Assembly (NCBI GenBank): GCA_015654695.1
Contig: JAATGJ010000092.1
Location: 1-64,000 of the forward strand
Origin: Chitinophagales bacterium
GTDB taxonomy: Bacteria > Bacteroidota > Bacteroidia > Chitinophagales > Chitinophagaceae
Length of the DNA stretch: 64,000 nucleotides
Direction of reading: 5' to 3'
Every line of letters begins with the position of its first letter. The stretch's first letter is position 1. The notes below the pieces were generated by a model. That model was given only the letters and a program-made list of their open reading frames with translations. It had not been told where the DNA came from and did not search any database. Below, in pieces: positions 8,942 through 26,562 of the stretch. The translations under genes and the position numbers were made by a program.

Positions 8942-10174
8942 ATGGGAAAGAAATTATTTTACAAAGGATTAATCTTTAGGGAATTTTATTTCTCTGGCAC
9001 TCTCTCCTGTGCTGATTTAAGCGAAAGAATCGGAAAAAGTCTCCCTCTCACCATGAAGCTTTTGAATGAACTCATTGAAGAGGGCTATGTCAAAGAATCC
9101 GGGTATGCTCCATCCCGTGGCGGAAGAAGGCCTGTCATGTATACTATTAAGACCGATACGATCTATATTCTGTCCGTTGCCATGGATCAGTTAATTACCC
9201 GCATTTCCCTGATGGATATTCATAATAATCATGTGGCAGGTGTAGCGAAATTTGAATTACCACTGCAAAAAAATATTTCCGCTCTTTCTTCCCTTGCAGA
9301 GAAAATGGAAGAAGTGATTTGCAAATCAGGGATAGATAAAAAGAAAGTAATAGGCGCCGGTATCGGGATGCCCGGTTTTATTGATTTTAAAAAGGGTATC
9401 AACTACTCTTACCTTGATTCAGAAGATAAAACCGTTACCCAGTACCTCTCCGATAAATTAGGTCTTCCTGTTTATATAGATAATGACTCCAGTCTTATTG
9501 CCCTGGCAGAGTTCAGGTTTGGCGCTGCCCGTCATCAAAAGAATGCAATGGTTATTAACATTGGCTGGGGCATAGGCTTAGGTATGATATTGAATGGCGA
9601 ACTATTTCGCGGGCACAATGGATTTGCCGGTGAGTTTAGCCACATGTCCCTTTTTAATAATAATAAGTTATGTGTTTGCGGTAAAACAGGTTGTCTTGAG
9701 ACGGAAGCGTCTTTGGTAGTGGTTATTGAAAAAGCAAGTGAAGGACTGAAGACAGGCAGGTTATCAGCATTGGGAAAACAGTTTCCAACAGGACATTTTG
9801 AGCAGGATTGGGAAGCTATCGTTAATGCCGCCATCAGAGGTGATCAATATGTGGTGGAATTATTATCCGATACAGGTTATAATATCGGAAAAGGAGTAGC
9901 TATCCTGATTCACCTGGTCAACCCTGAATCGGTAATACTCAGTGGCCGGGGTACCCTGGCAGGAAAGGTATGGCAGGCGCCCATTCAGCAGGCATTGAAT
10001 GAGAATTGTATTCCGAGGCTTGCCGCTAATACTACGGTTGCTATATCCACCTTGGGATACCAGGCGGAATTGATCGGATCAGCGGCATTGGTGATGGAGA
10101 ACCAGGTTAAAGAACACTCAAAGAAGATGGAAAAGAAAAAAAGCAAGAAAACCTTTTCCGAAGGAATCAATTGA
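8942..10174 (+). CDS. ROK family transcriptional regulator (copy 1)
   Basis: NagC/XylR-like sugar-responsive regulator of 410 residues. Residues about 10-60 form a winged helix-turn-helix (FSGTLSCADLSERIGKSLPL and following). The ROK domain follows with the zinc motif CVCGKTGC (after EFSHM) and the NDSS/AEF block of the sugar pocket. The N-terminal phosphate-binding loop of ROK kinases (D-x-G-G-T) is absent; the equivalent reads ILSVAMDQLITRI, so this is a regulator rather than a kinase. A paralogue at 15488 is about nine-tenths identical by eye; the two differ mostly in the linker and the basic C-terminal tail (KKMEKKKSKK here). Their position around a SusC/SusD pair implies control of that operon by an unknown sugar. 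Confidence 0.92.
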   Translation: MGKKLFYKGLIFREFYFSGTLSCADLSERIGKSLPLTMKLLNELIEEGYVKESGYAPSRGGRRPVMYTIKTDTIYILSVAMDQLITRISLMDIHNNHVAGVAKFELPLQKNISALSSLAEKMEEVICKSGIDKKKVIGAGIGMPGFIDFKKGINYSYLDSEDKTVTQYLSDKLGLPVYIDNDSSLIALAEFRFGAARHQKNAMVINIGWGIGLGMILNGELFRGHNGFAGEFSHMSLFNNNKLCVCGKTGCLETEASLVVVIEKASEGLKTGRLSALGKQFPTGHFEQDWEAIVNAAIRGDQYVVELLSDTGYNIGKGVAILIHLVNPESVILSGRGTLAGKVWQAPIQQALNENCIPRLAANTTVAISTLGYQAELIGSAALVMENQVKEHSKKMEKKKSKKTFSEGIN

Positions 10175-10234
10175 AACTATGTGCTTATTTATATAGTTAG
10201 GACTCTTTTTATCTAAAATTTAAAAACAACTGCA

Positions 10235-13200
10235 ATGAAGAACAAACAATTAATCATTGTATTCCTTCTCCTGCTAACGAGCAATACCATATTGCTGGCA
10301 CAGGGAAGGCGTACAATTACCGGTGTTGTCAATGACAACAACGGGAAGCCGCTACCTTCCGCGACAGTGAGTGTCAAAGGCACGGCACAGTCGGTAGTAA
10401 CAGACGAAAGCGGGCGTTACAGCATTACCGTAGATAATAGCAACGCTGTGCTGGTTTTCAGCTCTGTTAGTTTTACATCAAAAGAAATAGCAGTGGGTAG
10501 CTCAAACTCACTAAACGCAAAGTTGGAAACTGCTGCCGGAGAACTAAGTGAAGTAGTAGTAACAGCCCTGGGAATTAAAAGAGAAAAAAAATCCCTGGGT
10601 TATGCTGTGCAGGAAGTAAAGGGTGAGACGCTGGTTTCCGCCAAAGAGCCCAACTTAGCCAACGCACTTTCTGGTAAAATCGCAGGATTGCAGGTGGTAC
10701 GTTCAAGCGACGGACCCGCTGGTTCTTCCAAGATATTATTAAGAGGTAGCAATTCATTGACAGGCAGTAACCAGCCTTTGATCGTTGTAGATGGAATTCC
10801 TATTGACAATTTTACCGGCGCCCCGGATAACGGCTACTGGAATCGTTCTTTGGATATGGGTAATGGTATCGCAGATATCAATCCCGACGACATAGAGAGT
10901 TTGTCCGTATTAAAAGGCCCTTCTGCTGCGGCGTTGTATGGATCAAGAGCCGGTAACGGTGTAATATTGATCACTACCAAATCGGGCAGAAAACAAAATG
11001 GATTGGGTGTTACTGTTTCATCATCATTAGGTGTTGAAAGCATCTTTACGAATCCTGAAATGCAGAATTCATTCGGACAAGGTGAAAATGGTATCTATAG
11101 AAAAGATTCTCCATTAAGCTGGGGTCCTAAAGCGGAAGGCCAAACGGTAGAGAATTGGAATGGCGAAAGTGTTCCATTAAATACATACGATAACGTTTCC
11201 AGTTTCATGAAGCAAGGAGTTACTCAAAACTATAGCGTATCCTTTCAGCAACAATTTAAAAATACTTCAGTATATACTTCTTTCAACCGTTTGGAAGATA
11301 AAGGCATGGTACCCGGTATTAAGTTGACAAGAAACAATATCACTGCAAGAGCAGTAAGTAAATTTGGTACCGGCGATAAATGGACTACGGATACAAAGAT
11401 TCAGTACAGTAATGCATTAGCAAACAACCGTCCTATTGGCGGTCGTGATAACAGCAATGCTTTTACTTTATACATGTTACCAAGGTCTATGGATATCCGC
11501 CAGTTCAGCAACCCTGTTAATGCTGATGGTAATATGATATGGTATCCGGGTGGCGGCAACCAGATCAACCCCTACTGGGCCAGCAAGTATAACCTGAACC
11601 AGGATTCAAGAGACCGTTTCATTATGAATGGATCCGTTAAATACAATTTTACCAGTTGGTTAAATGCTGAAGTAAAAGCAGGTAGTGATATGTACACTAC
11701 TAATACTGAATCAAAATTATATGCAGGTGCTGCAGGTCTTTTATCAAAGACAGGCGCTTATTCCATAGGAAAGCAAACTTTCTCTGAAACCAACTTCAGC
11801 ACATTGATCACTGCAAGAAAAGATAATGTATTTGGTAAATTAGGCGGAATTGTAACTGTGGGTGGTAACCTGATGAGTTCAAAATGGTCTTCTATCAGTG
11901 CTAACTCAGGAGCATTAAATGTTCCTAATTTATTCTCTGTAAACAATGGTATCAACCCTCCAACTGTAGGTGAAGGTTTCAGCCAGAGAAAGATCAACTC
12001 TTTGTACGGCAATGTTCAGGTTAACTATGATGGTTACCTGTACCTTGATGCAACATTCAGGAACGACTGGTCATCTACTTTGATCAAACAAAACCGTTCT
12101 TTCTTCTACCCGTCATTAAGCCTCTCCTATGTATTTACTGATATGTTCCGCAATATGGGCAACAGCTTGCCTGCCTGGATCAGTTATGGTAAACTGAGAG
12201 CTTCTTATGCCGCAGTAGGTAATAGCCTTAATGCTTATGAATTGTATAACACCTATACAATTGGTAAAGATCCTAACGGAAATACCACTGCTTCAAGAAA
12301 ACCTATTAAGTATGATCCTTTTGTAAAAAGCGAGTTGATCAAATCTATTGAAATAGGTACTGAAATGCGTTTCTTCAACAGTCGTTTTGGTTTTGATTTT
12401 TCCTGGTACAAAGCAAATGCAACAAGACAGTTGATCAATCTGCCAATGGATCCCCAGAGTGGTTACTCTGCTATGAAGATCAATGCAGGCGATATTCAGA
12501 ACACAGGTATTGAGTTAATGGTTGACGGAAGAATTTTAAGCAGCCCTAACTCTCTTAACTGGAATGCATCTATCAACTATTCTTCCAATAATAATACTGT
12601 AGAAGAATTGTTTGGTGATGTTACCCGTTACGATCTGGGAAGCTTTGATGATGTTGCTGTATTAGCAATAGTAGGTCAAAAATATGGCGAGATCTATGGT
12701 ACTAAATTCAGCAGGGTTAAAAATGCAGCCAGCCCTTATTTCGGCCAGGTTATCTTAGGCGCTGATGGTTTACCTACAAGGGATCCTGAAATTGTAAAAT
12801 TAGGTAACCAGCAGGCAACAGGTTTATTAGGTGTAACAAATACTTTTGAATATAAAGGTATTGGTTTATCATTCCTGGTTGATGCACGTTTTGGCGGACA
12901 AATGTTCTCTGCTACACAAGTAGCTATGCAAAGCAGCGGTACTGCCGCAATTACCGCTCCTAATGGTGCAAGAGAAAATTTCGTAGTAGATGGCGTTATA
13001 GCTGACGGAGCCGGTGGATTTACTAAAAATTCAGTAGCAGTAAGCCCCCAGTTATACTGGCAAAGGGTTTCAACTGCCAGCAACCTGGGTATAACAGAAG
13101 CTAACATATATGATGCATCAAACCTGCGTTTAAGGAACATTCAGTTGAACTATGACCTTCCGCTGAAATTTTTATCTAAAACTCCCATCCAAAGGGCCAG

Positions 13201-16864: not shown

Positions 16865-18970
16865 ATGAAACTTTACCCCGAATCGGCGCATTTACAACTG
16901 GAGTTTGACAAAGTGAAAGCATTACTCGTGGAGCATTGCCAGGCTGAGTATGCCAAAAACAAAGCCCGGTCTCTTCGCATTCATACCCGGAAAGAGTTTA
17001 TTGATGTAGAATTAAAGCAAAGCCATCAATACAGCCAGTTGCTGAGGAATAATATTTATTTTCCGAATGATCATATCCTCAACCTTGCCAAAGAATTAAA
17101 ATTACTGGGCATACCCGGAGCCGTACTGATTGGTGAAGACCTGATGCAAATAAGGAAACTGGCGGAAAGCATAGAACGGATATTCCGCTGGTTTGATAAT
17201 GAAAGAAAGACAGCTTATGAAGCATTGGCCAAAGTGATCAGCCATACGTATTATGAAAAGATCATTATCGCGATGATAGATGATGTATTGGATGAACACG
17301 GACAGGTAAAAGATAATGCGTCTAAGGAGCTGAAGGATATCCGTATGAATGTATATCGTAAGCGGAATGAATTACGGAAAGTATTTGAAAAGATCGTCGC
17401 TAAACTTAATAAACAGGGATACCTCGCAGAAATAGAAGAAAGTTTTATGAGCGGCCGCAGGGTGCTGGCGGTATTCGCTGAACAGAAGCGAACGGTGAAA
17501 GGAATTTTACATGGCGAAAGTGACAGTCGCAAAACAGCCTTTGTAGAACCGGAAGAAACCATTGAACTGAACAACCAGGTATATGAACTGGAAAATGATG
17601 AACGAAAAGAAGTCTATCGGATATTGCGTGAACTGACAGCCAGCTTAGCGTCCTACTCATCATTACTAACGGCATGGCATGCAGTCATTGGCGAATACGA
17701 TTTTATCAGGGCGAAGGCAAAACTGGCGGCTGATATAAAAGGGGAGTATCCTGCTGTGGTGGATAAGGCCCATGTACATTTGGTGCAGGCCTATCATCCT
17801 TTATTGTATTTATATAATCAGCGCAGCAATAAAACAACTATTCCGGTATCTATTACTTTGGATGATAACAGGAGGATACTGGTGATCAGCGGGCCTAACG
17901 CAGGCGGCAAAACGGTTACGTTAAAAACAATAGGCTTATTGCAAATGATGGTGCAAAGCGGGTTGCTGGTGCCTGTGCATCCTTCCTCGCAATTTGGTAT
18001 TTTCAAACAACTGATGATACATATCGGTGATACGCAGAGTATCGAGTTTGAATTGAGTACGTACAGCAGCCATCTCATCCACATGAAATACTTTATGGAG
18101 AATGCGAATGGTAAAACACTTTTCTTTATTGATGAACTGGGAAGCGGCAGTGATCCCAACCTCGGCGGCGCTTTCGCCGAAGTGATATTGCAGGAGCTGG
18201 CGAAGAAACATGCTTTCGGCGTTGTGACCACGCATTATCTTAATCTGAAAATAATGGCGGGAAAAACTCCCGGTATCATTAATGGCGCGATGGGTTTTGA
18301 TGAAAAGAACCTGCAACCGCAATATAAATTACTGATCGGTAAACCCGGAAGTTCGTATACATTTTCCATTGCTGAGAGAATTGGTTTGGATAAAGACCTG
18401 GTCAAAAGGGCAAGGGAACTGGTGGATGATGACCAGTTCCGGCTGGATAAATTACTGAACCGTACCGAACAGGACCTGCGTGACCTGGAAAAGAAAGAAA
18501 AAGAACTGCAACTGGCTATAAAAGAAAATGAACGGCTGAAAAAAGAAATGGAGCAGGTATTGCATAAGGAGCGGCATACACAACAGGTGGAATTATTAAA
18601 AGAACAGAACCGTGTATCTGAAGAACGTATCGCTTACCTGAAAGATATGGAGCGCAAGCTGAAGCAGATGCTGATAGACTGGAGAAAAGAAGAGAACAAA
18701 AACAAAGTGATCAAACAGATGGAAGACCTGCTCTTCAAAAAGAATGAACAAAAGGTAATGGGTAAGATGCAGAAAAAGATAGATTCAAAATTTGCAGAAG
18801 TGGGCGGTGAAATAAAAGTGGGAGATAAAGTAAAAATGAAACGCAATCACCAGGTAGGCGAGGTGATAGAGATGAGGGGCAAAAGAGCAGTAGTAAAAAT
18901 TGGTTTATTGCCGATGCAGGTGGAAGTGAATGACCTGGTGGTGGTGAAGGAAAAGTTGAATGAAGAATAA
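16865..18970 (+). CDS. MutS2-like ATPase without Smr domain
   Basis: MutS-family ATPase of 701 residues of the MutS2 branch (no mismatch-binding N-terminal domain). The Walker A motif GPNAGGKT is at 343-350 and Walker B FFIDE at 420-424, followed by the MutS signature (GSGSDP and the TTHY block). A long charged coiled coil occupies about 525-620 and a KOW/SH3-like segment (VGDKVKMKRNHQVGEVIEM) ends the protein. Canonical MutS2 is about 780 residues and ends in an Smr nuclease domain; here the frame stops before it and no Smr-like frame is visible downstream. It may act in recombination control or, like other MutS2 proteins, on stalled ribosomes, but without the nuclease. The name is by family only. 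Confidence 0.9.
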   Translation: MKLYPESAHLQLEFDKVKALLVEHCQAEYAKNKARSLRIHTRKEFIDVELKQSHQYSQLLRNNIYFPNDHILNLAKELKLLGIPGAVLIGEDLMQIRKLAESIERIFRWFDNERKTAYEALAKVISHTYYEKIIIAMIDDVLDEHGQVKDNASKELKDIRMNVYRKRNELRKVFEKIVAKLNKQGYLAEIEESFMSGRRVLAVFAEQKRTVKGILHGESDSRKTAFVEPEETIELNNQVYELENDERKEVYRILRELTASLASYSSLLTAWHAVIGEYDFIRAKAKLAADIKGEYPAVVDKAHVHLVQAYHPLLYLYNQRSNKTTIPVSITLDDNRRILVISGPNAGGKTVTLKTIGLLQMMVQSGLLVPVHPSSQFGIFKQLMIHIGDTQSIEFELSTYSSHLIHMKYFMENANGKTLFFIDELGSGSDPNLGGAFAEVILQELAKKHAFGVVTTHYLNLKIMAGKTPGIINGAMGFDEKNLQPQYKLLIGKPGSSYTFSIAERIGLDKDLVKRARELVDDDQFRLDKLLNRTEQDLRDLEKKEKELQLAIKENERLKKEMEQVLHKERHTQQVELLKEQNRVSEERIAYLKDMERKLKQMLIDWRKEENKNKVIKQMEDLLFKKNEQKVMGKMQKKIDSKFAEVGGEIKVGDKVKMKRNHQVGEVIEMRGKRAVVKIGLLPMQVEVNDLVVVKEKLNEE

Positions 18971-19252
18971 TTTTTTGAAATGTAAGCAGATTTATTCGAC
19001 AAGGAATGTTCATGGAAAGTATAAAAGCGGGCTGAGTTATGATTGTAATCTGACGCTGCTCCTGCCAGGTTGCATTTACCTCTTACTGGATTATCAGATA
19101 AAGGGGAATTCCTTAGATCACGACGAGGAGATATTTCCACAAATTGCATTTTTTGTTGAATGTCGTATAGCAATAACTATTATAACTGATTAACAAAAGC
19201 CGGGTTTATTATCAGGAATGATAATTGTCCTTCATTTGAAAATTAATAGTAT

Positions 19253-19762
19253 ATGGGAGATGTAAAAAACCTGGCGAATAAAGATGCTGTTGAAAAAATG
19301 CGGGAAATTGCCAAAGCCGCTAATATATGTATGTTCGTTACTAATTTATCGAGTTTGCCTTTATCAGCAAGCCCTATGGCCACACAGGAAGTGGATGATG
19401 AAGGTAATTTGTGGTTCTTTAGTAATAAAAACAGTAATAAAAATGCGGATATAGCTGAACATAACGAGGTTCAGTTATTTTATTCCCATACCGGTAATTA
19501 TGAATACTTAAGTATTTATGGTAGGGCTGAAATAGTAATTGACAGGAAAAAAAATGAAGAGCTATGGACGCCGTTAGCAAAAGCATGGTTTAAAGAAGGT
19601 AAGGACGATCCTGAACTTACCCTTCTGAAAGTAACACCATCAGATGCTTATTACTGGGATACTAAAAACAGTAAAATGGTTTCATTTTTTAAAATTGCCA
19701 TCAGCGCTATATCTGGTAAAGGAATGGATGATGGAGGAATAGAAGGGAATTTAGATGTTTAA
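19253..19762 (+). CDS. Pyridoxamine 5'-phosphate oxidase-like split-barrel flavoprotein (general stress protein 26 type)
   Basis: Cytosolic protein of 169 residues with the FMN-binding split-barrel fold of the general stress protein 26 group. Visible landmarks are the N-terminal helix followed by ANICMFVTNL, the strand and loop SPMATQEVDDEGNLWFF, the phosphate-binding-type SNKNSNKNADI, and the YEYLSIYGRAEIV strand. Members bind FMN or related flavins and are often induced by stress; the physiological substrate is generally unknown. It is a single gene; repeat copy A begins 19 bp after its stop. Confidence 0.88.
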   Translation: MGDVKNLANKDAVEKMREIAKAANICMFVTNLSSLPLSASPMATQEVDDEGNLWFFSNKNSNKNADIAEHNEVQLFYSHTGNYEYLSIYGRAEIVIDRKKNEELWTPLAKAWFKEGKDDPELTLLKVTPSDAYYWDTKNSKMVSFFKIAISAISGKGMDDGGIEGNLDV

Positions 19763-19780
19763 ATAGCCTTTATATTCTTT

Positions 19781-20056
19781 AATTCTGTAACGAGTGTCAC
19801 AAACTTACGTTTCATAATTAAAGCTCAGGCCAGCGATATATGCAATCTACATGAAATTGACGCCTATCCGATAGCTATCGGATAGGCGTCAATCTGTAAA
19901 GAATTTAATATATATCACCAGGCTTCGTAGCAGCGCGAGGTCTGGTCGCCAGGTTTTCTTTGTTTGCGGAGTCTGGTGGCCGGGACATTGCCTTTCAAGT
20001 GATGTCTGGACCCGGCAGGAAAGAAAGTCCGGGGTTCGGACACTAAGCGAGGAAGA
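19781..20056 (+). repeat. Dispersed structured intergenic repeat, copy A
   Basis: About 275 bp related to copies B (20991) and C (26161), all in the same orientation. The first half shares AACGAGTGTC, CAGGCCAGCGATATATGCAATCTA and the GATAGCTATC palindrome with copy C. The second half shares CTTCGTAG, GACATTGCCTTTCAAG and CCCGGCAGG with copy B (written here with small differences). A contiguous 14-pair stem with wobbles can form between 19941-19954 and 19971-19984, and an equivalent but differently sequenced stem exists in copy B. It could be a mobile repeat, a structured RNA or both. Confidence 0.7.
19856..19893. repeat. Perfect 38-bp palindrome inside repeat copy A
   Basis: The two 19-base arms, beginning ATTGACGCCTATCCGATAG, are exact reverse complements with no spacer. 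Copy C has a related 24-bp perfect palindrome at 26247-26270, with the same 18-base core; copy B lacks the core. No T-run follows, so it is not a normal intrinsic terminator. Confidence 0.95.
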
Positions 20057-20161
20057 ATTTCAACAACAATTTTAAAGCGTCTGCCCTGGATGAAAGCATT
20101 AGTTTATTAATTGCCCTTTCCGATGTTTACCTATCTTTAAAATTGCCAAACCACACCCACC

Positions 20162-20992
20162 ATGTATTACCGGACCAAAAAACAGGTTCATATCCTCTTG
20201 CATCCCACTGAGGGCAATAGCAAACTAGACAAGATCATCAACACCTTTCTTATTACCCTCATCATCCTGAATGTAATAGTAGTGATACTCGAAACGGAGC
20301 ATGCTATATATATACAGCACCAGTCTTTTTTTAAAAATTTTGATACGATATCCGTTATCATTTTCAGCATTGAGTATGTTTTGCGTGTCTGGAGTGCAAC
20401 GCATGAAAAAAAGTATAAACACTGGCTCCGGGGCAGGTTACGTTATATGCTTACATGGGGAGCGATTATAGACCTGGTATCTATCCTTCCTTTTTATCTC
20501 CACGCTTTTACCGCATTGGATCTTCGGGTACTTCGTATTCTACGGTTATTACGGCTGCTGAGAGTATTCAGGCTTGCCAGCTATATGAAATCAACCCGGA
20601 TGATCATAAACGTATTCCGTAGCCGTGCTCATGAATTATCTATCAGCCTGATCCTGATAGTCGGGCTGATCATCGTTTCGGCTTGTGTCATGTATTTTGT
20701 TGAGCATCCGGCACAACCTGATAAATTCCCCAGCATTCTCGCTACGCTTTGGTGGAGCATCGTAACGTTGACTACGGTAGGTTACGGCGATATTATTCCG
20801 ATCACTCTTATGGGTAAGATACTCACTGCTGTCATCTCTCTATGCGGTGTAGCCCTCTTTGCTCTGCCCGCCGGTATCATAACAGCAGGATTCCTGGAAG
20901 AAATAAAAAAGATCAAAAAACCAAGAATACATAATTGCCCTCATTGCGGCCAGCCTTTAAACCTGCATGAACACAGTGACGCAGACCATTAA
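20162..20992 (+). CDS. Voltage-gated potassium channel-like protein (6TM, TVGYGD)
   Basis: Inner-membrane ion channel of 276 residues with six transmembrane helices. S4 is strongly basic with Arg every third residue (LRVLRILRLLRLLRVFRL, 121-138), the voltage-sensor pattern. The selectivity filter TTVGYGD (204-210) predicts K+ selectivity, and the pore helix TLWWSIVTL precedes it. The short cytoplasmic tail ends with CPHC (259-262) and a His-rich end (NLHEHSDADH), which could be a small metal site; the second Cys pair of a zinc ribbon is missing. The stop codon TAA touches the start of repeat copy B, and copy A lies upstream, so the gene is framed by the two repeats. Confidence 0.93.
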   Translation: MYYRTKKQVHILLHPTEGNSKLDKIINTFLITLIILNVIVVILETEHAIYIQHQSFFKNFDTISVIIFSIEYVLRVWSATHEKKYKHWLRGRLRYMLTWGAIIDLVSILPFYLHAFTALDLRVLRILRLLRLLRVFRLASYMKSTRMIINVFRSRAHELSISLILIVGLIIVSACVMYFVEHPAQPDKFPSILATLWWSIVTLTTVGYGDIIPITLMGKILTAVISLCGVALFALPAGIITAGFLEEIKKIKKPRIHNCPHCGQPLNLHEHSDADH

Positions 20993-21250
20993 TCTGAAAG
21001 AGAATTTACGCTTCGTAGCCGATGTCTGGGCGGTAACCTATACAATCTTAATAAAACATCAGGGGCCCGATCAGCGTCAATTTGTAACGGATGTATTCAA
21101 ATAATATCATCTAGTTTCGTAGTACAGCCTGCCCCGCAGTATTGCGGGGGCGAGTCCGTCCGCCAGATTTATTTAGTTCCCAGAATCTGCTGGACGAGAC
21201 ATCGCCTTTCAAGGGGTGCGGAGACTCGGCAGGGAAGAGGAGACTTCGCA
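20991..21250 (+). repeat. Dispersed structured intergenic repeat, copy B
   Basis: Related to copies A and C. The first half shares TACGCTTC, GCCGATGTCTGGGC, CAATCT and GGCCCGATC with copy C, but the palindrome core is missing as if removed between two GATC words. The second half shares GACATCGCCTTTCAAGG and ACTCGGCAGGGA with the others. A stem of 11 pairs out of 12 joins 21158-21169 to 21184-21195. A separate hairpin, CCCCGCA-gtat-TGCGGGG at 21132-21149, sits between words that are adjacent in copy A and looks like a nested insertion. Confidence 0.7.
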
Positions 21251-21504
21251 GAGCGGACCCTATATGGTAAAGAGTACTGCCATTTAACATAATGCTGTTT
21301 CATACACTCCTGATACTCTATCCATGCTTTTTCCATACTGCATCCATATACCATTCATACACCCTGAACGCTTTTAGTATGCCTTTGGGTGGGCTTTGAG
21401 TGGGAGTTGCTTCGCTTTCGCCCAGATTATTCTTTTTTTTGTGCTGATATAATAGAAGCCCCCTTCTGATTCAAAGAACTTTTTACTCACGATTCACATA
21501 TTCT
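21251..21504. other. Non-coding stretch before the secreted protein gene
   Basis: No supported gene. From about 21295 to 21370 the sequence is low-complexity, made of imperfect CATAC/CCATAC words, the kind of degenerate simple repeat seen elsewhere in the window. Confidence 0.4.
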
Positions 21505-21512
21505 TACTTTTG
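21505..21512 (+). promoter_or_regulatory. Candidate -7 box TACTTTTG for the beta-helix protein gene
   Basis: TACTTTTG is a perfect match to the Bacteroidota -7 consensus TAnnTTTG and lies 94 bp before the ATG at 21607, leaving an A-rich leader of about 88 bases. No TTG is found at the expected -33 distance, only a TTTTTAC word. Confidence 0.4.
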
Positions 21513-21606
21513 AGATAGCTTTTATATTCGCTATGGACAAAAACAAATCTGGCAAAGGCTTGGAAATTCTATTGAATTACACACAAAAACAAATTAAAAC
21601 TTTCTT

Positions 21607-24600
21607 ATGAAAAGAATTTACTTCCTCCTCATTTCCCTGGCAATGACATTGATGGCGAATGCACAGAATGTGAATGTTAACCCGGGTGCAGGCAGTTATC
21701 CTGACCTGGCAAGTGCTTTTGCAGCCATCAATGCCGGTACACATACAGGTGCTATCACAGTAGATATCGTTGGCAATACAACAGAGACAGTTTCCGCTGT
21801 TTTGAATGCAAGTGGTGTAGGTGCCGCAAGCTATACAAATATATTTATTCAACCCAGCGGTGGTGGTCCAAGAACCATAACGGGCGCTATTACCGGTATC
21901 CTTATTGATCTGAATGGCGCTGATGCCGTATTCATAGATGGTTTGAATACCGGTGGTAACAGTTTAACCATTTCCAATACAGCTACAGGCGCTTCCAATA
22001 CTATTCGTTTTATTGGTGATGCCTCCGGCAATACCATTCAAAATTGTATCCTTCAGGGTTCAGCATCTACCGCGTCCAATGGGGTGGTATTTTTTAGTAC
22101 CGGTACTTCTACCGGTAATGATGGAAATAACATTAATAATTGTAACATTACTGCGGCTGGTGCAAATTTGCCTGTTAATTGTATTTTTTCTTTGGGTACC
22201 AGCTCGATTATTGACAACAGCGGTAATACCATTAATACTAATAATATTTCCGACTTTTTCAGCGCTTCCCTTGTTTCTATCGGAATTAACATTGCCAGCA
22301 CGGGAAATTCAACCTGGACTATTACCAATAACAGATTATTTCAAACAGCTACAAGAACCTATACTTCTGCCAATATCCATAATGGAATAAATATTGCTGC
22401 TGGTGATGGTTATACTATAGCAGGAAACATCATTGGTTTTGCTAATTCAGGTGGAACAGGTACAACCAATATGGTTGGAAATTCTTTAGGTTTGACAGGG
22501 TTTCCCGTTTCTTATACGCCTTCAGGGGCTGCCAATGCTACAAGATATATTGCAATTAATTGTGCTTTTACGGCTGCCGGCATAGTTTCATCCATTCAAA
22601 ATAATACAATTGCAGGATTTGCTCTTTATACATCCAGCGGAGTTGCAATAACAAACGGTATCTGGTGTGGAATAAATGTAATCTCAGGTAATGTGAATAT
22701 TGGTACAACCACGGGAAATATGATCGGTTCAAGTTCAGGAACAGGATCAATTTATACTGCCTGTTCAACTACAGGAGGAACGATTGCAGGCATATATGTA
22801 ACAAGTGCAAATACGGTGAACATTCAGAACAATACTATCGGAGCTTTGAACGCAATGGGAACAACAGCTTCTACTTGCGGAGGAATAAATGGCATTAATA
22901 CTACCGGTGCGGGAACATTCAATATATCGGGTAATACCATAGGAAATTCTACAAACCCCAATTTAAGAATGGGAACTCTTACAGCAGGGGCAAATCTTTC
23001 AAATACCGGGGCATTTGGAATTTCAACCGGCCTTTCAGCCTTTAATGGCATACTTTATAGCGGCAGTACTGCGATTACTATAGGGAGTCAAAGTTTACCT
23101 AACATTGTAAGAAATGCTTCACAAAATTCAAGCAGTGTATCTTCTTCTATCAGGGGTATCGTAAGTTCCGGCATCCCGGTAATCGCGTACAATAGCATTA
23201 ACAATTTAACCTCTCAAACCCCGAATACAGCCCTTTCCAGTACATTATTGGCCGGAATGGGTATTTTTCTAAATTCTATAACTATTGCCGGAGCTGTAGT
23301 AAATAGCAATACGATTAATTCATTATCATTATCAAACACAGGAACCGTTGGTAATAATATAGCAGGTATTGCTATTTATGCAGGTACTTCAACTATTTCA
23401 AACAACCAAATTTATGATATTAATAATGCAAGTACATCAACAGCAACTGCAACACCGGGAACAGCTACAGGAATATTTTTGCGTCAACCAAACGGGACTA
23501 TAACCTTATATAATAATATGATTTCATTAGGCAACGGTCAGGCAACTAATACAGCTTTTAATGGAATATGGCAACAAAATTCGGCAGTGGCTTATACATT
23601 AAACGAATATTTTAACACCATTAACATTGAAGGTACTGCCGCTACAGGGGCGCAACCCAGTTTTTGTCATAACAGGAGTTCTTATTCTATTATGACAGTA
23701 ACTACTACTGTGGATATAAGAAACAATATTTTTAATAATACACGTTCAGGAGGTACCGGAAAACATTATGCCATAGGTAACTGTTATGGCGCCACGGCAG
23801 TTGCCACAGGTTGGGCTGCCAATGCATCTAACTACAATGTGTTAAATGCCAATGCTGCTACTGTTGGTTTCTGGACTACCGATCAGACTTTTTCCGGCTG
23901 GCAAACAGCCTCTGCAAGTGATGTGAATTCACTTTCACCGGTTCCTGTAGTGTTTGTAAATTCTGCAACTGATCTGCATTTAAGCAGTGCAGCAGGTGTA
24001 AACTGCCAGTTGGACGGTCTGGCCACACCCATTGGTACTGTAACTGTTGATATTGATAATGCGGCCCGGGATGCAGCAGTTCCGGATATGGGTGCGGATG
24101 AATTTACACCTGTTCCATCTTCTACTCTGGCAGCATCAGCAGGCGGTGGCCAGGTTTGCAGCAACATAGCAATAAGCGGGGCAGGTACCATTTATAGAGA
24201 TGCAAGCTGTAATACAATCGCCGGAATATTACCGAATGGCGGCAGCCCGGTTAGCGGCTTGGTAAACACATGTGTAACGATTGATGCTACCGTTCAATCT
24301 TACGGCGGGAATGTCTATGTGCAGCGCCACTTTGATATTACTCCTGCCGTTAACCAAACTACGGCTACTGCAAGGATAACCCTGTATGTTTTGCAATCAG
24401 AGTTTGATAGTTATAACGTAGCAAATGGAATACAATCTGACTTGCCAACCGGGTCCGGGGATGCTACCGGAATAGCCAACCTTAGAATAACCAAGTACAG
24501 TGGTAATGGAACACTTCCTGGTACCTATTCGCCCGGTGTGGCAACATTTATTAATCCTGCAGATGCAGATATAGTGTGGGATGTTCTTAACAACTGGTGG

Positions 24601-25242
24601 ACAATCAGTTTCGATATAACAGGGTTCTCTGGCTTTTTCATCCACACCGGATCGGGAGTTTTACCTGTTAGCATTCTCCACTTCAGCGGATACAAAGATG
24701 GCAGCCGCAACCAACTACGCTGGACAACAGGCAGCGAACAAAACAACAGTGGTTTCGAAATGCAGCGTTCTGCGGATGGTGTAAATTATAATGCCATTGG
24801 TTTTGTAAACTCATCGGCATTGGGTGGAAACAGTACATCGCAATTGGACTATGTATTTACTGATAACAGTGTTGTGGGAAGCAGGCAGTATTATCGTTTG
24901 CGCCAGATGAATTTTGATGGCAACAGCGAGCTTAGCAATATTGTGCTGATCAAAGGTGACAAGCCGGTAACATTGACAATTGATGGATTGTTCCCGAACC
25001 CCGCCGGTTCAGTGGTGAATGTTTTGATCGCTACGGCGAATAAGGATAAAATCACATTGATAATTACTGATATTGCAGGCAGAAAGGTGATCGAACAACT
25101 GGTGAGTGTAGAAGCCGGAAGCAATACGATACCCGTTGACATCAACAAACTGACCAGGGGAACGTATATAGTGAAATTGGTTTGCCCGGATGGGCATCGG
25201 GATAATTGTGAGAGTGCGGTGGGTAAGTTGGTGAAGCAGTAG
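21607..25242 (+). CDS. Large secreted beta-helix protein with type IX secretion sorting domain
   Basis: Extracellular or surface protein of 1211 residues. A signal peptide (1-19, ending ANAQ) is followed by some 750 residues of Asn/Thr/Gly/Ser-rich short repeats with the rhythm of a right-handed parallel beta-helix (for example NTVNIQNNTIGAL and ISNNQIYDINNAS). A second region (about 830-1010) is beta-rich, and LPVSILHFSGYKDGSRNQLR (about 1019-1038) begins the domain typical just before the sorting signal. The C-terminal 80-90 residues (GLFPNPAGSVVNV onward, GTYIVKLV, GKLVKQ) are a type A T9SS sorting domain, so the protein should cross the outer membrane by T9SS. The beta-helix resembles polysaccharide-lyase folds, but no catalytic motif was identified. 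A strong terminator follows. Confidence 0.9.
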   Translation: MKRIYFLLISLAMTLMANAQNVNVNPGAGSYPDLASAFAAINAGTHTGAITVDIVGNTTETVSAVLNASGVGAASYTNIFIQPSGGGPRTITGAITGILIDLNGADAVFIDGLNTGGNSLTISNTATGASNTIRFIGDASGNTIQNCILQGSASTASNGVVFFSTGTSTGNDGNNINNCNITAAGANLPVNCIFSLGTSSIIDNSGNTINTNNISDFFSASLVSIGINIASTGNSTWTITNNRLFQTATRTYTSANIHNGINIAAGDGYTIAGNIIGFANSGGTGTTNMVGNSLGLTGFPVSYTPSGAANATRYIAINCAFTAAGIVSSIQNNTIAGFALYTSSGVAITNGIWCGINVISGNVNIGTTTGNMIGSSSGTGSIYTACSTTGGTIAGIYVTSANTVNIQNNTIGALNAMGTTASTCGGINGINTTGAGTFNISGNTIGNSTNPNLRMGTLTAGANLSNTGAFGISTGLSAFNGILYSGSTAITIGSQSLPNIVRNASQNSSSVSSSIRGIVSSGIPVIAYNSINNLTSQTPNTALSSTLLAGMGIFLNSITIAGAVVNSNTINSLSLSNTGTVGNNIAGIAIYAGTSTISNNQIYDINNASTSTATATPGTATGIFLRQPNGTITLYNNMISLGNGQATNTAFNGIWQQNSAVAYTLNEYFNTINIEGTAATGAQPSFCHNRSSYSIMTVTTTVDIRNNIFNNTRSGGTGKHYAIGNCYGATAVATGWAANASNYNVLNANAATVGFWTTDQTFSGWQTASASDVNSLSPVPVVFVNSATDLHLSSAAGVNCQLDGLATPIGTVTVDIDNAARDAAVPDMGADEFTPVPSSTLAASAGGGQVCSNIAISGAGTIYRDASCNTIAGILPNGGSPVSGLVNTCVTIDATVQSYGGNVYVQRHFDITPAVNQTTATARITLYVLQSEFDSYNVANGIQSDLPTGSGDATGIANLRITKYSGNGTLPGTYSPGVATFINPADADIVWDVLNNWWTISFDITGFSGFFIHTGSGVLPVSILHFSGYKDGSRNQLRWTTGSEQNNSGFEMQRSADGVNYNAIGFVNSSALGGNSTSQLDYVFTDNSVVGSRQYYRLRQMNFDGNSELSNIVLIKGDKPVTLTIDGLFPNPAGSVVNVLIATANKDKITLIITDIAGRKVIEQLVSVEAGSNTIPVDINKLTRGTYIVKLVCPDGHRDNCESAVGKLVKQ

Positions 25243-25268
25243 TTTTTACAGGATAAAAATTTATTACC

Positions 25269-25301
25269 ATCCTCCCTGTAGTTCACAGGGAGGATTTTTT
25301 T
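25269..25301 (+). terminator. Intrinsic terminator after the beta-helix gene
   Basis: A perfect 11-bp stem ATCCTCCCTGT / ACAGGGAGGAT with a five-base loop is followed by a run of seven T residues, 26 bp after the stop codon. Confidence 0.95.
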
Positions 25302-25446
25302 GATAATAATAAAGAATAAAAATGACCCATCATAAAATTTTCCGGTACTGTCCAGGTTTGAAAAACTTATGCCAGGCGGGTAACAATTAATTTTATCTGC
25401 ATTTATTTCGACTGGTGCTGTATTTGATATTTTTAAAAGAACCAAT

Positions 25447-25677
25447 ATGATGCCATACAGACATTGTGATTTTGGAGGGTGTGGTTATTATAGCTACTCT
25501 TTAACTAAATCGATTTTTAAAATTGATTTGCTCAGATTAATGGTTTTTTATAAATGCTCTGATACTATTCTTCTAAAAAATAATTTAACGGGAAATTTTA
25601 CTGAGGTAGAACTGGCGATAATTAAACAAAGTCAGTATGGGAAAAATCCCGTTGATACCAGTATATTATTGAAATGA
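25447..25677 (+). CDS. Small hypothetical protein (76 aa)
   Basis: No family recognised. The ORF starts with two Met codons and has a Cys/Gly/Tyr-rich opening (HCDFGGCGYYSY), then a hydrophobic and basic middle. It lies between two intrinsic terminators, one ending at 25301 and one starting at 25691, 13 bp after its stop; the tight downstream terminator is the main reason for keeping it. No signal peptide or clear transmembrane segment is present. Upstream there is no strong promoter match. Confidence 0.45.
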   Translation: MMPYRHCDFGGCGYYSYSLTKSIFKIDLLRLMVFYKCSDTILLKNNLTGNFTEVELAIIKQSQYGKNPVDTSILLK

Positions 25678-25690
25678 TATTAAAAATTAA

Positions 25691-25712
25691 AAGAGGCTTC
25701 GGCCTCTTTTTT
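25691..25712 (+). terminator. Intrinsic terminator with UUCG loop
   Basis: AAGAGGC and GCCTCTT pair around a TTCG tetraloop and are followed by T residues. It closes the small ORF at 25447; on the other strand the A-rich 5' flank could give weak termination for the transposase remnant. Confidence 0.88.
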
Positions 25713-25741
25713 ATTGCGCCAGTTGCAGTACATTATACCAA

Positions 25742-26160
25742 TTATAAATCATAGATAGTCTGATAAGTGTCTAAATAAAAAGGATACCCTGTTATATTAA
25801 TAATCGCCTGGTTTGTAACTCTGTTTTGGATGATAGTTTTGATGGCATCCGATAACTCATCAAGTGAATGATAGACCTGATTGGTCATTTCTTTTTTAAT
25901 AATTCTCCATACCTGCTCTGCCGGATTTAGTTCAGGGCTATAAGGAGGCAGGAATAGTAGCCGATATTAGGTGGTATCACCAATCTGTTTGCTTTGTGAA
26001 AAGCGCCGTTGTCCAGGACGACTATTTTGTATTCCTTCGGTTGGTGTTTTGACAGTTCATCTAAAAATTGCTGAAACATATCGGTGTTGCAAAAGGTAAG
26101 CTCCAGCATTACCGTACTGCCTGTTATGGGAGAGAATGCGCCAAACAGGTACAGGTTCTT
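25742..26160 (-). pseudogene. IS630-family transposase remnant (5'-truncated, frameshifted)
   Basis: Read on the minus strand, the first frame gives YLFGAFSPITGSTVMLEL, then FQQFLDELSKH and IVVLDNGAFHKANRL (catalytic Asp of the DDE triad), ending IPPNI. After one missing base near 25968 the next frame continues LLFLPPYSPELNPAEQVW and runs to a TAA at 25742. These are the last two DDE acidic blocks of IS630 transposases (D in LDN, E in NPAE). About 140 of the usual 330-350 codons remain. The N-terminal part is gone: coding similarity stops exactly where repeat copy C begins at 26161. No terminal inverted repeats or TA duplication were identified. Confidence 0.88.
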
Positions 26161-26515
26161 TTAATTCCGCGACGAGTGTCCGAAACTCACGCTTCTAAGC
26201 CGATGTCTGGGCCAGCAATATATACAATCTAAATGAAACTGGCGGCCCGATCCGATAGCTATCGGATCGGCGTTAATCTGTAACAGATTTCGTTAGATCA
26301 AGGTATCTAGCTCCAGTAAATTCATCACAAAGCAAGTTGGATGTGATCTTCGCAAGCTCGGCACGAAAAAATAAATTCATTCAGGTTCTTTGATCTTTCA
26401 CTTACCAGGCATTTAAAAATTTACAAATTTTGCTCCGTAGGACGACGAGTGCCATATATCCACACAATGTCATCTGACACAGAATCTTTGAAGGAGTGGG
26501 ACACTCGGCTTCGAA
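26161..26515 (+). repeat. Dispersed structured intergenic repeat, copy C
   Basis: The first about 130 bp match copy A (GACGAGTGTCC, CCAGCAATATATACAATCTAA, a 24-bp perfect palindrome at 26247-26270, then TTAATCTGTAA). After about 130 bp of unrelated AT-rich sequence, a diverged second half appears (GACACAGAATCTTTGAAGGA, then GGGACACTCGGC), matching copy B. The left edge cuts off the IS630 remnant. The region 26161-26562 holds no gene. Confidence 0.65.
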
Positions 26516-26562
26516 TTAACTAATGTGAGACATTTGTCTCCGAATTAGGTAATGTGAAGCGA

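Follow-up and report, generated by a model that had tools for sequence, protein, structure and literature searches.

Three diverged intergenic repeats, here called copies A, B and C, lie in a 64,000-nucleotide stretch of DNA from a Chitinophagales bacterium of the family Chitinophagaceae (contig JAATGJ010000092.1 of assembly GCA_015654695.1, positions 1 to 64,000; the window). They are very probably non-autonomous, decayed derivatives of a transposon of the repetitive extragenic palindrome (REP)/REP-associated tyrosine transposase (RAYT) kind, whose hairpin ends the transposase probably reads in folded single-stranded form. A sequence-only reading had proposed a mobile repeat or a candidate structured RNA; the first proposal is borne out, and can be specified as REP-like and REPIN-like (REPINs being inverted REP doublets) derivatives of a RAYT transposon.

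The copies were found at 19781-20056, 20991-21250 and 26161-26515, all in one orientation and yet diverged, as had been described. Gapless stretches comprise 85 nt at 73% identity between A and B, 36 nt at 81% plus 44 nt at 86% between A and C, and 29-30 nt at 77-86% between B and C; the A-C match reaches E=1.6e-21 in a BLAST search of the genome. R1, a covariance model of a ~96-nt unit built from 12 sequences of this genome, and alignments resolve copies A and B into two mutually inverted units each and copy C into one unit and a related unit, K. The features are as follows.

19788..19882, plus strand: copy A left unit, degenerate (R1 34.1 bits, E=8.5e-7)
19856-19893: perfect palindrome with 19-bp arms (I6), within the right arm of the copy A left unit
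19926..20017, minus strand: copy A right unit, inverted; holds the 14-pair stem seen in the sequence-only reading (R1 63.1 bits, E=9e-15)
20995..21084, plus strand: copy B left unit (R1 43.6 bits, E=2e-9)
21075..21111, minus strand: copy B remnant of the RAYT gene 3' end, antisense to B (alignment to the RAYT element of genome G005, z=6.1, 0/500 shuffles)
21140..21231, minus strand: copy B right unit, inverted, the best-folding unit of the window (R1 87.2 bits, E=2.2e-21, this being one of the sequences from which R1 was built; fold z=-3.5)
26161..26181, plus strand: copy C left outer terminal repeat, TTAATTCCGCGACGAGTGTCC (inverted repeat I10, 21 nt, 81% complementary to 26499-26519)
26170..26265, plus strand: copy C 3'-side unit, with a CCGATAGCTATCGG palindrome nested in its right arm (R1 79.8 bits, E=2.3e-19)
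26271..26328, minus strand: copy C remnant of the RAYT 3' coding end (z=8.7 alone; z=14.2, 0/500 shuffles, with the 3'-side unit, against G005)
26384..26440, minus strand: copy C remnant of the RAYT 5' end and leader (alignment to the decayed RAYT of contig C102, z=18.7, 0/500 shuffles)
26441..26493, minus strand, borders approximate: copy C K unit, the 5'-side hairpin of the RAYT element (alignment to the G005 RAYT 5' flank, z=15.1, 0/500 shuffles)
26499..26519, minus strand: copy C right outer terminal repeat (inverted repeat I10)
18955..19101, minus strand: separate decayed RAYT gene fragment of the same clade, upstream of copy A (tblastn 41% over 49 aa, E=1.6e-5 in the searched loci; DNA alignment z=13.7)

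Copy C runs from a 3'-side hairpin through the antisense RAYT 3' end and the RAYT 5' end with its leader to a 5'-side hairpin. It aligns with both sides of the RAYT element and therefore corresponds to that element minus the middle of the gene; judged from these alignments, it is an internal-deletion derivative. Copies A and B are, by the arrangement of their units, inverted doublets of REPIN-like form, and copy B retains ~37 nt of the RAYT gene 3' end. The window copies are old and decayed.

The unit is tied to a single clade of RAYT genes. The related genome G005 contains an open 218-codon RAYT open reading frame (ORF) between two hairpins, with the unit abutting the ORF end and a K unit on the other side. 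The ORF matches NCBIfam NF047646 (REP-associated tyrosine transposase) at E=6.6e-20, and the protein between the units fits this model rather than the IS200 transposase model NF033573. In the genome of the window, contig C102 carries a decayed ortholog of the G005 gene between the same two units. Protein searches recovered related RAYTs at 43-58% identity in G002, G003, G014 and G027, as well as fragments elsewhere. In a set of 30 RAYTs, seven representatives, including a later find from G272, group together as a single clade (support 99/100). This clade was missed by Pfam PF01797 at E<=0.001 and surfaced through its position beside the units; no unit stood beside any Y1 transposase found with PF01797. 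Inverted hairpins built on a common skeleton (foot, GTC, unpaired T, ... G, GAC, foot') flank the clade genes, and their bases differ from genome to genome. A mechanical scan for this skeleton, relaxed once, gave a descriptive count of hairpins at 8 of 15 clade loci versus 0 of 43 other Y1/RAYT loci (7/15 versus 0/44 in the first, stricter version), where shuffles lead one to expect about zero. Other Y1/RAYT genes of the genus have their own, different short palindromes on both sides (flanks of L067, L176, L177, L054 and L168), and several REP-like families therefore coexist in the genus.

R1 matches in genera outside the model-building set were fetched with their surroundings. One such genus is represented by G272, where an open RAYT frame sharing 70% identity with the G005 frame has a K-type unit immediately on its 5' side and 3'-side units on the opposite flank. 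In a second G272 copy, 1.1 kb away, a 3'-side unit is joined to the 5' end of the gene, as in copy C, which is the form of a deletion derivative. The other 17 fetched regions hold units with no detectable RAYT; this is expected of dispersed copies, and these regions alone neither support nor oppose the RAYT link. In G014, a RAYT copy (C44) and a derivative (C18) are 94-98% identical on both sides of a 338-bp deletion and sit in unrelated flanks, the common sequence starting and stopping at a pyrimidine tract beside the hairpin. A further copy on C41, truncated at one end, has the deletion junction of C18, with 99.5% identity over 222 bp and a different flank. One deletion junction is thus common to two unrelated sites, and derivatives have therefore spread; the simplest reading of these sequences would be that a deleted, non-autonomous copy spread after its deletion.

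The unit forms an imperfect hairpin, GGCGA-t-GTC-t-CGGCC-a-GC / GC-GGCCG-GAC-TCGCC, whose stem comprises 5+3+5+2 pairs. The left arm has two unpaired Ts, separated by three pairs, and the loop, partly conserved, is ~25 nt long. A TTC-rich tag lies immediately 5' of the hairpin foot, and 49 of 55 units have TTC somewhere in the 10 nt that precede the foot. The 14-pair stem noticed earlier in copy A is present and is made of 8 Watson-Crick and 6 G.T pairs, and its 11/12-pair counterpart in copy B (10 Watson-Crick, 1 G.T and 1 mismatch) belongs to the same hairpin. The right unit of copy B folds better than its shuffles (z=-3.5), whereas that of copy A does not (z=-0.6).

Across 58 units from seven genomes, double changes were found at 12 of the 15 stem pairs, a number reached by 1 of 500 shuffles. 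No shuffle out of 500 equalled the observed 79 double-change cells, pairing percentage or covariation score; the score was 0.293 versus 0.147 in shuffles and <=0.085 with slid partners. Cells here are sequences rather than events, and their number is inflated by related copies. The alignment had been fitted to the hairpin structure, which favors structure, but this alone does not explain the double changes in the upper stem, from C-G to G-C nine times and from G-C to C-G 16 times. RNAalifold returned only 4 pairs on the same alignment because the loops are ragged and the copies decayed, and the pairs of the named hairpin were counted directly for that reason.

The different bases of the two stems had been read as the mark of a conserved RNA structure. 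A conserved fold, with covariation above the shuffled background, is confirmed; the assignment to RNA is not. By analogy with other transposases, covariation of this kind is what a folded DNA substrate would give. A structured RNA acting in cis or in trans at many intergenic sites, for example, a hairpin in 3' untranslated regions that stabilizes or ends transcripts, with the fold selected in RNA, is very unlikely. G.T pairs exceed A.C pairs slightly at most (33 versus 18 in well-paired units, p=0.049; 52 versus 47 in all units), and an RNA fold is therefore not called for. Furthermore, an Rfam 15 scan of the window gave 0 matches at the gathering score, the units are found in either orientation and also paired in inverted fashion, the hairpins flank a transposase clade, and a regulatory RNA would leave the transposase gene parts inside copy C unexplained. 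Known relatives of this transposase clade act on folded DNA. What such an RNA would share with the data is the strong covariation of the hairpin and the intergenic position of the units; REPs elsewhere do affect transcripts (PMC3733652, PMC6006769), and the present units may, by analogy, act on transcripts in a secondary role.

Window positions 25760-26160 (minus strand) hold a remnant of an IS630-type transposase (DDE_3, E=3e-5, just under the Pfam cut-off), with an apparent frameshift near 25965. Copy C had been said to cut this remnant; the remnant is present and is truncated at copy C, but no continuation was seen on the far side, and the cut itself is not borne out. Given this neighbor and the 21-nt outer terminal inverted repeats of copy C, which start at a TTAA-like sequence, the repeats could be imagined as miniature inverted-repeat transposable elements of a DDE transposon such as IS630, with AATTC..ACGAGTGTCC ends as terminal inverted repeats and insertion at TA. 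This is extremely unlikely, as the outer ends differ among copies and many lack TA or AATTC (the TA-like borders are those of copy C, judged by eye, and other copies differ), and in G005 and G272 the units enclose a RAYT gene rather than one for a DDE enzyme.

Under the preferred derivation, a RAYT transposon would consist of a RAYT gene (HUH Y1 family) between two inverted hairpin ends, and each unit would fold as an imperfect hairpin on one DNA strand. In vitro, the Escherichia coli RAYT cuts and rejoins REP DNA folded as a single strand, for which it requires both the bulge and the GTAG tag (PMC8266576). By analogy, the RAYT of the present clade most likely recognizes the fold in single-stranded DNA, cuts it and rejoins it, and should read the bulged hairpin together with the TTC-rich tag as a guide. 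Any stretch bounded by two inverted units would then move, including in trans, whether or not it has a gene inside. Internal deletion would yield elements like copy C, and closer pairing of units would yield inverted doublets such as A and B, solo units and clusters. The copies in this genome are probably immobile now, because only decayed clade members were found in it, namely, the C102 gene and the window fragment at 18955-19101.

Several observations weigh against this derivation. An intact RAYT of the clade was not found in the window's own genome, of which the assembly is 98.8% complete. The G005 RAYT scores 71.5 bits, under the NCBIfam cut-off of 80, and its match to the E. coli TnpA_REP structure 4er8 is weak (E=0.11). 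GTAG was not seen in the unit alignment, nor was the GT[AG]G of classical REPs found at the 5' foot. The pattern used in the skeleton scan was written after the clade flanks had been read. Within the window, the left hairpin of copy A is badly decayed, and alignment of copy A to the RAYT ends revealed no gene remnant (z=0.9). Finally, none of the copies in this genome could be matched to an empty site: a search of the genus with window positions 19200-21300 for an orthologous empty site returned repeat matches only, and a comparison of C37 with G005:C57 showed none.

The search for further copies, in this genome and in relatives, shows that the unit family is dispersed and taxonomically narrow. 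R1 has 31 matches in this genome (5.42 Mb), a count that decayed copies may escape, and matches occur in 20 of 396 sampled genomes of the family (~5%), from 9 of 103 genera. ORFs of >=120 aa cover 75% of the loci, yet just 3 of 58 units have an overlap of >30% with one. The units occur in both orientations, and inverted doublets are found in copies A and B, on C173 and C37, and in G003, G004 and G035; most units are solo and outside arrays. A unit common to C168 and G001:C45 seems, from this shared position, to predate the split of two species. The units as integron-like attC recombination sites of gene cassettes, folded single strands with extrahelical bases and small genes between them, would suit the extrahelical bases of the hairpin, the alternation of units with small ORFs at C182:9400-13050 and the three units within 1.7 kb on C162, but this explanation is hardly credible, since most units are single rather than arrayed, inverted doublets are common and the gene that accompanies the units is an HUH Y1 transposase.

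The absence of a recognized named family in the sequence-only reading was fair, as classical REPs are marked by a GTAG tag, which these units do not have. The traits of REP/REPIN-RAYT systems in the broad sense are nonetheless there: palindromes that flank a RAYT (G005, C102 and G272) and are also dispersed, a conserved imperfect hairpin, extragenic location and inverted doublets. As in classical GTAG REPs, bacterial interspersed mosaic elements and REPINs of E. coli and Pseudomonas (PMC3116915, PMC8266576), intergenic imperfect palindromes form inverted doublets, a RAYT lies between inverted copies and the stem is bulged. Unlike them, the present units lack GTAG, are longer, have a ~25-nt loop and two unpaired Ts, include RAYT gene ends inside a dispersed copy and number in tens rather than hundreds, with 31 in 5.42 Mb, whereas classical REPs usually exceed 100 per genome (PMC2817692). 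Elements of the IS200/IS605 family and their deletion derivatives are similar: subterminal hairpins containing unpaired bases enclose an HUH Y1 transposase gene, a short guide precedes the hairpin on its 5' side, and the deletion derivatives are non-autonomous. They differ in that the present protein fits NF047646 rather than NF033573 and in that the present ends are inverted copies of related units.

The closest described group is TnpA_REP subclass 2.6 (Bertels group 5), which occurs in Bacteroidetes and is flanked by "atypical secondary structures" with copies elsewhere in the genome (PMC6006769). Its motifs are NH[LIV]H, WQ and YIH[QN]NP, and its flanking structures lack GT[AG]G and needed manual inspection (PMC6006769). 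Likened by motifs and description, the present clade shares with it the host phylum, the HUH motif NH[LIV]H, the YIH.NP motif, flanks without GT[AG]G and dispersed structures. It differs in its W motif, mostly WE (..VWEDSFDWKEC) rather than the WQ of that paper, and in the dispersal of its gene fragments and internal-deletion derivatives. Among the seven representatives, the HUH motif agrees in six, WE replaces WQ in four and YIHNNP is found in three, the others having YMHDNP, YIHDNP, YIHFNP and YIHLNP.

Because gene fragments and derivatives are dispersed, and because GTAG and high copy number are lacking, the system is called a variant of the known REP/RAYT system; as far as its sequences indicate, it has a TTC-rich tag for GTAG, two unpaired Ts and a ~25-nt loop. 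The tnpA_REP gene has been described as mostly single copy, with mobility lacking evidence (PMC8266576). In contrast, dispersed copies contain RAYT fragments in this genome, in G272 and in G014, and near-identical G014 copies with and without the internal deletion sit at unrelated sites. We therefore put forward, at slightly less than even confidence, that the clade is a RAYT lineage that is still a true transposon and not a domesticated single-copy gene: its gene would travel with its ends, internal-deletion derivatives resembling miniature inverted-repeat elements would spread in trans, and a code of its own (a TTC-rich tag, two unpaired Ts with three pairs between them and a ~25-nt loop) would replace GTAG and the short palindrome. 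Such a lineage could link IS200/IS605 and REP/RAYT. If this is true, it offers a system for direct testing of REP/RAYT transposition, with a hairpin code unlike GTAG. In addition, with model R1 a structured repeat that had no name becomes a class that can be searched for in genomes.

Several loci show unusual arrangements of the units. At L042 (G000:C182), positions 9400-13050, at least six units alternate with small ORFs whose products have the look of orphan immunity proteins or of small secreted ones; the array resembles a cassette array and adjoins a GIY-YIG gene at its end. Contig end L141 (G003:C176), positions 1-220, contains a tandem array of a 75-nt single hairpin unit in at least two full copies, and a longer array may have been lost there in assembly. 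The G003 doublet forms part of a larger, ~730-bp repeat that contains no recognized gene and of which two loci are 90.6% identical (L140:2943-3830, L143:3045-3772, L144:3387-3820). A pattern scan of contigs gave a single match, in an Omnitrophica gene, which was read as chance; the model found no unit there.

Other repeats accompany the units. The palindrome CCGATAGCTATCGG is nested at about one position of the hairpin right arm in several copies from two genera (window 19856-19893 and 26247-26277; L042:10640-10675; L050 near 2150; L043 near 5870; L153 near 3580, in G019 of another genus). It may be another REP that targets the unit hairpin, and it was absent beside every Y1/RAYT locus fetched. 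A second, unrelated repeat family (CGGAGTCTCCGTCTTTGCGAGG ... AGATTGCTTCGGTCTGTC) often adjoins units (L051:1-430 and L137:2540-2750, on G000:C168 and C7). Contig C90 of this genome carries a copy, 91% identical, of the 44 nt that directly follow copy B (21257-21300, outside the unit).

Copies A and B do frame an ion-channel gene, as had been pointed out, but the framing looks incidental. Another ion-channel-like ORF, which shares 31% identity with the one in the window, lies ~1.5 kb from another unit (L137:327-995, G000:C7), probably by coincidence. A sorting domain of the type 9 secretion system (T9SS), which points to Bacteroidota, is also present as a match to Por_Secre_tail.

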